A stretch of DNA of 47,761 bases from assembly GCA_030145205.1 (NCBI GenBank), contig JAQYVZ010000026.1, positions 1 to 47,761 of the forward strand, given 5' to 3'. Both the position numbers and the translations under genes were made by a program. Each line of letters opens with the position of its first letter. The stretch's first letter is position 1. The notes under the pieces are model-generated. The model did not search any database. It saw nothing but the letters and a program-made list of their open reading frames with translations, and was not told the DNA's origin. This document shows, piece by piece, positions 10,312 through 24,437 of the stretch. The DNA is from Desulfuromonadales bacterium. GTDB taxonomy: Bacteria; Desulfobacterota; Desulfuromonadia; Desulfuromonadales; BM103.

Positions 10312-10396
10312 GGTCGCCGAAAGGGTAAAGCTCGGGTAACCGGGTGGCACAAAACTACCGTCTGCATGGTCAGATCGTGGGGTTGTCGAAGTGACC
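10312..10396 (+). ncRNA. GEMM-I type (cyclic-di-GMP-I) riboswitch aptamer, copy 1
   Basis: Outer stem P1 pairs GGTCGC (10312-10317) with GTGACC (10391-10396). Inside it follow, in GEMM order, AGGGTAAAGC, a hairpin closed by a GTAA tetraloop, the conserved GGCACAAA-AC-TACCG segment, a variable hairpin, and GTGGGGTTGTCGAA. This matches the known Vibrio Vc2 aptamer element by element. The position equivalent to Vc2 G20 reads G, which favours cyclic di-GMP; the cGAMP-selective subclass has A there. A terminator and a REC-PilZ gene follow. Identification is by eye, without a covariance search. Confidence 0.85.
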
Positions 10397-15774: not shown

Positions 15775-15860
15775 GGTCACCGAAAGGGTGAAGCCTGGGT
15801 AACCAGGTGGCACAAAGCTACCGTCTGATATGATCAGATCGTGGGGTTGTCGAAGTGACC
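15775..15860 (+). ncRNA. GEMM-I type (cyclic-di-GMP-I) riboswitch aptamer, copy 2
   Basis: P1 is a perfect GGTCAC (15775-15780) / GTGACC (15855-15860) pair, against GGTCGC/GTGACC in copy 1, so the stem is kept while a base differs. Then come AGGGTGAAGCC, a hairpin TGG-GTAA-CCA with a GNRA tetraloop, GGCACAAAGCTACCG, a TCTGA/TCAGA hairpin, and GTGGGGTTGTCGAA. Core bases match the Vc2 GEMM aptamer, with G at the position that selects cyclic di-GMP. Confidence 0.87.
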
Positions 15861-23671: not shown

Positions 23672-23697
23672 CGTACCGCGCCACAGCCGTTTTAAAA

Positions 23698-23734
23698 AAA
23701 GGGGCAACGCCAGTCGACCAGGCGCTGCCCCTTT
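23698..23734. terminator. Bidirectional terminator
   Basis: AAAGGGGCAACGCC (23698-23711) pairs with GGCGCTGCCCCTTT (23721-23734), with one mismatch. On the minus strand it runs into seven Ts, giving a strong terminator for the rhodanese gene. It also lies 27 bases after the plus-strand gene. Confidence 0.8.
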
Positions 23735-23787
23735 CATGTTCAGGCATTGCGGATCGTGAGATTGATCCGGTGAGGCTTGCGGCTCTT

Positions 23788-24219
23788 TTACTTGTTATCC
23801 ATCGTCAAGCCTGCATTCTGCCAGGCGCCATACCCACCCAACAGGGGCCAGACACGGGTGAAACCGTTTTCCTGCAACGTGAGCGCCAGACTGGCGCTCG
23901 AGGCTTCCGCGTGTCAGGTACAGTAGGTCACAATCGGCGTGTCTGGCGGGTAGCTTTTGACCAATTCCCGGATGTCACGAGCACTGGCCAGCCGGACCGC
24001 ACCGGGCAGCTTCTTATCAGCCCTGCTCCATTGCAAGTTGGTACGGGTGTCAATAAACAGGATGTCTTCACCGTTCGTCTGAATCTTCTGAACGTTTGCA
24101 ATGCTGATTCTCTGCGGATGGTTTTTGCTGAGCGTTGCTGCCGCAACCTGGGAGCCCCAGAATACGAGCAGCACAAGCAGGGCCAAAAGACAGACCAGCC
24201 GGTTGAGATAAAAATTCAT
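23788..24219 (-). CDS. Exported rhodanese-like sulfurtransferase, probable selenoprotein (TGA = Sec)
   Basis: Read through the in-frame TGA at 23914-23916, the gene gives a 143-residue protein that covers a full rhodanese domain. An N-terminal hydrophobic segment (about 5-27) exports or anchors it. DILFIDTRTNLQWSRA is the first conserved block. The active-site region reads YCTUHAEASSA, with residue 102 (U) where relatives have the catalytic cysteine of YCxCPxEA. The remainder (ENGFTRVWPLLGGYGAWQNAG) is the family C-terminus. A stop there would remove the active site and last strands. A hairpin like a bacterial SECIS lies 14 bases after the TGA. AAAGGA supports the ATG at 24219. It probably handles sulfur or selenium species in the periplasm. 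Confidence 0.8.
23881..23913 (-). promoter_or_regulatory. Candidate bacterial SECIS element
   Basis: On the minus strand, 14 bases after the TGA, GAGCGCC and GGCGCTC form a perfect 7-bp stem with apical loop AGTCT (23881-23899). E. coli fdhF has a loop AGGUCU at about the same distance, and its UGA is likewise followed by CAC. The loop G is about 23 bases past the TGA, within the range I know for bacterial SECIS elements. This is an identification by eye. Confidence 0.7.
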
Positions 24220-24437
24220 GGAAGGATCCTTTCCGTTTTTCATTAATTATATCATCAACCCTATTTGCACTGACAAGTGTCTGCATAAACTTTTTTCTGG
24301 AGATAGACGTTCATTGGCCGATTCTGCTTTGTATGCATGGTTGTGATGTGTTAAGAGAGGGAAATTTTTAATGCTGGTTTTTTCTTCTGCTGCCATGCAC
24401 GTGCGGCATTCAAGACCGGCCAACCAGAGGAGGTGAC

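Follow-up and report, generated by a model that had tools for sequence, protein, structure and literature searches.

A predicted exported rhodanese selenoprotein with a C-x-U active-site loop in a Desulfuromonadales genome

Rhodaneses carry sulfane sulfur on a cysteine of the active-site loop. The closest described relatives of the protein reported here are collected in the family model NF041203 (rhodanese_LYCAU, rhodanese-related (seleno)protein), which appears in the accessible part of PMC13188914 as "Rhodanese-like domain-containing protein form 3" with the motif CxU. A rhodanese form with CxU is also listed as a predicted selenoprotein in the accessible part of PMC9312934. Rhodanese selenoproteins with a C-x-U motif are therefore an already known predicted kind, and the protein described here adds to it. 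The earlier note on this DNA states that selenocysteine-containing rhodanese-like proteins have been reported in surveys of selenoproteins. In the literature search, the accession NF041203 was found only in PMC13188914. Searches for rhodanese selenoproteins outside the subscription literature, also in combination with Desulfuromonas or Geobacter, returned no title on such an enzyme, and no biochemical test of any CxU rhodanese was found in the accessible text of the literature searched.

The window analysed here is a stretch of 47,761 nucleotides from a Desulfuromonadales bacterium (assembly GCA_030145205.1, contig JAQYVZ010000026.1). The gene of interest lies on its minus strand and is interrupted by an apparent stop codon, behind which the earlier note had placed a hidden rhodanese selenoprotein.

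Reading frame and domain structure

The following features of the gene are referred to below:

23788..24219, minus strand: coding sequence of the predicted rhodanese selenoprotein, from ATG 24219 to TAA 23788-23790, 143 residues including Sec102.
24136..24219, minus strand: signal-peptide-like N-terminus, residues 1-28, a hydrophobic helix followed by AAA (from the sequence; helix 3-28 in the structure model).
23920..23922, minus strand: codon of C100, the residue that most likely serves as canonical rhodanese nucleophile (MAFFT, hhalign and part of the phmmer alignments).
23914..23916, minus strand: UGA predicted to be read as selenocysteine (U102), codon 102 from ATG 24219, residue 2 of the C-T-U motif.

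The start codon is preceded at 24227-24234 by GGAAAGGA, as read by eye. Direct reading of the sequence places the TGA at 23914-23916 in frame as codon 102, and beyond it the frame is open to the TAA at 23788-23790. Frame translation that stops at the TGA gives a product of 101 residues. The 143-residue translation contains a single rhodanese domain behind a hydrophobic N-terminus ending in AAA. The match to the Pfam family Rhodanese (PF00581) covers residues 49-136 and thus spans the TGA, with a score of 44.4 bits versus a gathering cut-off of 22.2, in agreement with the earlier claim that the frame past the TGA encodes the rest of the rhodanese domain and ends in the TAA at 23788. The AlphaFold model of the protein has a mean pLDDT of 89.4, and its best PDB matches by both Foldseek and VIA-align are rhodaneses, the best by VIA-align being GlpE (1gmx; Z 14.3, rmsd 2.2, 104 residues aligned). 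An open reading frame of 158 amino acids on the opposite strand (23770-24246, plus strand), which has no Pfam match at E 0.01, was put aside as an overlap.

The hydrophobic N-terminal stretch is present in all 42 measurable selenocysteine genes of the order, the remaining two of the 44 being too short. Because of this stretch and of the LLAC sequence in a second copy of the gene in the same genome, the CxU rhodanese family is predicted to be exported. The LLAC sequence is presumably lipobox-like, and the second copy is perhaps a lipoprotein.

Decoding of the UGA codon

The apparent stop codon is conserved among the relatives of the gene. A TGA occurs once in each of the 20 best matches from a search of 40 genomes, the gene's own among them; these matches come from 19 genomes. 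The same TGA is found in the ortholog from the same genus (genome G001), with 55% identity to the window protein, and in the second copy in the window genome (contig C75), with 39% identity. Among 136 genomes of the order, all 59 matches listed at 64.9 bits or more hold a TGA, and one of them also a TAA. The exact TGA codon was read in 44 genes of the order, including the window gene and the second copy, and in 24 of 30 loci retrieved from the phylum with NF041203; these 68 rows were picked by the motif YC-x-TGA and not by the hairpin described below, and they show the spread of the UGA form rather than its rate. The motif scan found no site in L074, L077, L214, L218, L219, L224, L228 and L239, and L090, a duplicate of L008, was dropped before the counts.

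If the UGA were a true stop, the gene would encode a 101-residue protein, and the downstream frame would be a remnant or a separate gene. Such a product would end within the active-site loop, with the likely nucleophile C100 still in place, but it would lack most of this loop and the domain's C-terminal portion. In the 17 homologs that were aligned (L013, L016 and L017 being left out), residues G119, L126, G128, G129 and W133, all downstream of the TGA, do not vary, so that similarity among the homologs continues past the TGA instead of ending there. Selection on the two parts of the frame was compared by Nei-Gojobori proportions in 14 homolog pairs, using up to 75 codons before the UGA and the codons after it. 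The downstream pN/pS is defined for 13 of the 14 pairs, ranges there from 0.07 to 0.62 and is lower than the upstream value in all 13, also after removal of the first 14 codons, which hold the hairpin, with synonymous change near saturation in the distant pairs. The L013/L014 pair has no synonymous change downstream, which leaves its ratio undefined. Between the window gene and its same-genus ortholog, pN/pS is 0.27 downstream and 0.48 upstream. Judged by these ratios, the downstream frame is under purifying selection, and a true stop is very improbable.

An in-frame UGA does not by itself name the residue that is inserted, which might be something other than selenocysteine, such as Trp, or the codon might be passed by general readthrough. 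The residues found at this site in stop-free relatives, which are nearly all Cys, Ser or Ala, argue against such decoding. Twenty stop-free stretches, a subset of the stop-free matches, were fetched. Six of these loci (L240, L241, L253, L256, L257 and L258) have YC-x-C or FC-x-C at the TGA site, L251 has CxC in both its sites, L254 has YSTC, and the remaining stretches have mostly Ser or Ala; Trp is present at the site in none of the 20 stretches read. The Cys forms L240 and L241 nest in the LYCAU selenocysteine clade with an SH-aLRT of 98, beside Desulfofustis glycolicus, in a quick tree with weak deep forks. Cys-containing homologs that align across the TGA thus exist, with two of the six CxC loci inside a selenocysteine clade. 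The named relatives in the tree include Desulfuromonas, Desulfuromusa and Desulfuromonadales genomes. The CxC rhodaneses L253, L257 and L258 lie in open frames of 315-326 amino acids and, given this length, probably belong to proteins longer than the selenocysteine form with its one domain. A search with a Cys-for-Sec query returned no relative; its site pattern was a Cys codon, which is unable to match a TGA.

The machinery for selenocysteine insertion is encoded in the window's genome (G000, completeness 100). The genes selA (601 bits), selB (402 bits) and selD (369 bits) score above their curated cut-offs and are adjacent to one another on contig C248. A tRNA-Sec with a score of 76.8 bits, for which ARAGORN gives the anticodon tca, is located on contig C98, so that selA, selB, selC and selD are all present. 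A further match to the tRNA-Sec model, on contig C82, scores 48.2 against a gathering score of 47. The selD gene (C248:12346-13269, L058) has an in-frame TGA at SGUAAKL and is itself a predicted selenoprotein gene.

Downstream of the UGA the transcript can form a hairpin:

23881..23899, minus strand: bacterial SECIS-like hairpin of 8 bp with apical loop GUC at 23889-23891 (from the sequence and homolog comparison).

The stem is formed by GAGCGCCA and UGGCGCUC, and the GUC loop begins 23 nt after the UGA. According to the accessible part of PMC1088965, a bacterial SECIS directly follows the UGA as a stem-loop whose small apical loop includes a G; the hairpin found here has both the stem-loop and the loop G. 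Its folding energy is ordinary (z = -0.32; matched by 64 of 200 dinucleotide shuffles), and free energy, not being significant, was dropped as an argument. Equal stem length and a loop G at the same distance are reached by 41 of 2000 synonymous recodings of the window gene, by a criterion of stem length, loop G and distance that was set after the hairpin was seen. In 19 other genes the same test gives 26 to 586 of 2000, with 586 for the second copy (L002). The recoding result is modest in the window gene and not significant in several homologs.

Across the 68 selenocysteine genes the hairpin occupies the same place without gaps, and the loop G (column 26) is invariant. In 66 of the 68 genes every one of the stem pairs 2-6 is standard, versus 1 of 15 non-selenocysteine sites in the same geometry, the single exception being L253, which keeps pairs 2-7. 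For this control, 16 of the 20 stop-free stretches were used, with L250, L251, L252 and L259 left out; L242 was then filtered out and one out-of-frame row of L248 was uncounted, giving the 15 sites. Pattern matches at no fewer than 119 loci were kept out of the comparison because the pattern contains the hairpin. The outer pairs are weaker, with pair 7 in 29 of 68 genes and pair 8 in 42. Codons 108 and 112 pair through their third positions, with UA in 35, CG in 21, UG in 10 and another combination in 1 of the 67 distinct rows. Covariation as high as observed is reached by 0 of 500 shuffles, although kinship among the rows and the leniency of the shuffle control mean that the covariation is overstated. 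When the partner is slid by 1-3 columns, pairing falls from 85% to 22-44%. In L229, where the codons differ, seven pairs are kept, and in two of these both partners have changed. It is solely through this comparison across homologs that the hairpin becomes convincing, and the earlier proposal of a SECIS-like hairpin at the right distance holds on that basis.

The presence of the selenocysteine machinery and the near restriction of the hairpin to UGA genes, added to the residues at the site, make insertion of a different amino acid, or general readthrough, exceedingly improbable. A pseudogene or sequencing error, in which a Cys codon (TGC or TGT, one base from TGA) had recently mutated to a nonsense codon or been miscalled as one, would produce the same local picture in one genome but is just as improbable given the same TGA in the G001 ortholog, in the second copy and across the order, the pN/pS below one past the TGA in 13 of 13 defined pairs, and the compensating changes in the conserved hairpin. 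Pseudogene, sequencing error, true stop and Trp recoding were accordingly rejected on the orthologs, selection and Cys homologs. The conserved UGA, the interchange of U and C, the conserved hairpin, the selenocysteine machinery, the purifying selection downstream and the rhodanese fold point to a selenoprotein, as the earlier note had supposed. Codon 102 is almost certainly decoded as selenocysteine, by means of SelB, tRNA-Sec and the hairpin directly downstream of the UGA, and it is very likely, at slightly lower confidence, that the product is both a selenoprotein and an exported single-domain rhodanese.

Genomic context and further selenocysteine rhodaneses

The gene is followed by one further element:

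23694..23731, minus strand: likely intrinsic terminator with an 11-pair stem, a 9-nt loop and a T7 tail, 57 nt after the TAA (read by eye).

A terminator scan with a loop limit of 8 does not list this element, the loop of which has 9 nt. The gene is flanked on one side by genes for chorismate synthase, a DUF4197 protein and a 284-aa open reading frame, and on the other by FKBP, VanZ, PDDEXK and UvrD genes. The G001 ortholog is also near VanZ and PDDEXK genes, followed by a 1128-aa open reading frame. The genes scanned beside the ortholog in genome G005 and beside the second copy differ from those of the window, and the neighbourhood therefore gives no clue to function. No sulfur-metabolism partner gene was found among the genes scanned beside the window gene, the G005 gene and the second copy. 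Elsewhere in the window, two c-di-GMP-I riboswitch matches score above the gathering score (10314-10390 and 15777-15854).

The second CxU selenocysteine rhodanese of the genome (G000:C75:85634-86068, plus strand; L002) belongs to another branch of the tree than the window copy. Two tandem rhodaneses of the same genome, L035:1450-2199 (plus strand, contig C214) and L036:1150-1896 (minus strand, contig C99), have an in-frame TGA at C-L-G-x-T-U, a C-x4-U site, followed by SECIS-like hairpins. This site has TGA also in L266, L267, L268 and L283-L286, and Cys in, for example, L269, L270 and L272. In the accessible part of PMC13188914, rhodanese form 1 is described by UxxS (WP_010941598.1). The C-x4-U tandem rhodaneses, with their U-x-x-S context, may be this form 1, and novelty as an unlisted form is not claimed for them. 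The term CxxxxU was not found in the accessible text of PMC13188914 or elsewhere in the literature searched.

Active-site loop, proposed chemistry and comparison with known systems

The active-site loop of the window protein reads I-V-T-Y-C-T-U-H-A-E-A-S-S-A and is two residues longer than the canonical rhodanese loop, so that either C100 or residue 102 can take the place of the canonical Cys in gap-free alignments. In three MAFFT modes, the canonical Cys of single-Cys rhodaneses from the fetched loci falls over C100 in five of five sequences and over residue 102 in none, and hhalign likewise places it at C100. The phmmer alignments pair C100 with the loop Cys of BpPRF, Wolinella Sud and 2hhg. 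In the best phmmer match, 6mxv, the loop Cys of both domains pairs with residue 102 instead, so that three of four phmmer alignments support a nucleophilic Cys at the start of the loop, with 6mxv as the exception. Assuming a tag offset of 20, the BpPRF residue paired with C100 would be C314, and the title of the structure of the C314S mutant calls the change rhodanese-inactivating. All 17 homologs in the alignment have C100.

The canonical catalytic Cys is thus most likely C100, two codons upstream of the TGA, and the TGA provides the U of the CxU motif; C100 is a likely rather than a proven nucleophile. The earlier note had placed the TGA exactly at the catalytic Cys of a YCxCPxEA loop. Both parts of that assignment call for revision, since the loop reads Y-C-T-U-H-A-E-A and the canonical Cys most likely aligns with C100. 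Its statement that standard annotation would truncate the protein at 101 residues is correct, but the active site would not be lost entirely, because C100 would be kept, though most of the loop would be gone.

The selenoprotein could be a thiol/selenol oxidoreductase or peroxidase, in which C100 and Sec102 form a redox pair without sulfane-sulfur transfer. The CxU motif resembles redox motifs, and a 2022 review expects, in its accessible part, redox roles for most uncharacterised predicted selenoproteins (PMC9312934). The rhodanese fold and the Cys kept at the likely nucleophile position would favour persulfide chemistry over this function, which is nevertheless a serious possibility, if short of a probable one.

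Sulfane-sulfur chemistry at C100 and Sec102 is put forward tentatively, as a possible function. In this proposal, polysulfide, thiosulfate or a persulfide outside the cytoplasm would supply the nucleophile C100 with sulfane sulfur. Sec102, two residues further in the same loop, would attack the C100 persulfide and release HS-, leaving a C100-Sec102 selenenylsulfide to be reopened by an external reductant. The mode of action would resemble that of the polysulfide-sulfur transferase Sud, with the addition of a built-in selenol that resolves the persulfide. A more specific role is conceivable but unlikely: an exported sulfane-sulfur reductase, in which sulfur from polysulfide is cut off as HS- by the enzyme's own selenol, and which would be one member, alongside the other TYCTU copy and both C-x4-U tandem rhodaneses, of a selenium-based sulfur relay outside the cytoplasm. 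What a selenol placed two residues from a rhodanese nucleophile does is directly testable.

The window protein has the C-x-U loop motif of NF041203 in the form YCTU. Its score against this model is 86.4 bits (79.1 in the genome search), below the curated cut-off of 115, and it is therefore treated as a sister group and not as a member of the family. Its kin L002, L004 and L005 score 97.3, 94.2 and 97.5 bits, all under 115, and two LYCAU proteins of the order score 147 and 163 bits. In the quick tree, the window protein and its nearest kin are outside the LYCAU clade. Gene finding that reads UGA as a stop cuts the protein at 101 residues, and the NF041203 cut-off does not reach the subfamily, so that the window protein will probably be overlooked along with its TYCTU kin. 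Taken together, the UGA forms, the Cys forms and the hairpin indicate that genes of this family in the order usually have a TGA, and with them the family model could be widened.

Several known systems can be compared with the window protein. The rhodanese/DsbD fusion TsoB (NF045694, UxxxxU) is likewise a rhodanese-related selenoprotein, but it has other selenocysteine sites, is a fusion, and is matched only weakly (17.2 bits versus a cut-off of 805). GlpE from E. coli (1gmx), the closest fold by VIA-align, is cytoplasmic, has one Cys in a loop of canonical length and is not known to contain selenocysteine. Sud from Wolinella (PDB 1qxn, titled polysulfide-sulfur transferase) is periplasmic and shares the fold, at Foldseek rank 16, and the Cys of its VVFC aligns with C100; however, its aligned loop lacks a second Cys or Sec two residues further, and the similarity is low (E 0.001). 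The LYCAU proteins of NF041203 share with the window protein the single rhodanese domain, the C-x-U loop, the same UGA site and hairpin (in those LYCAU genes that were read), and the existence of Cys forms.
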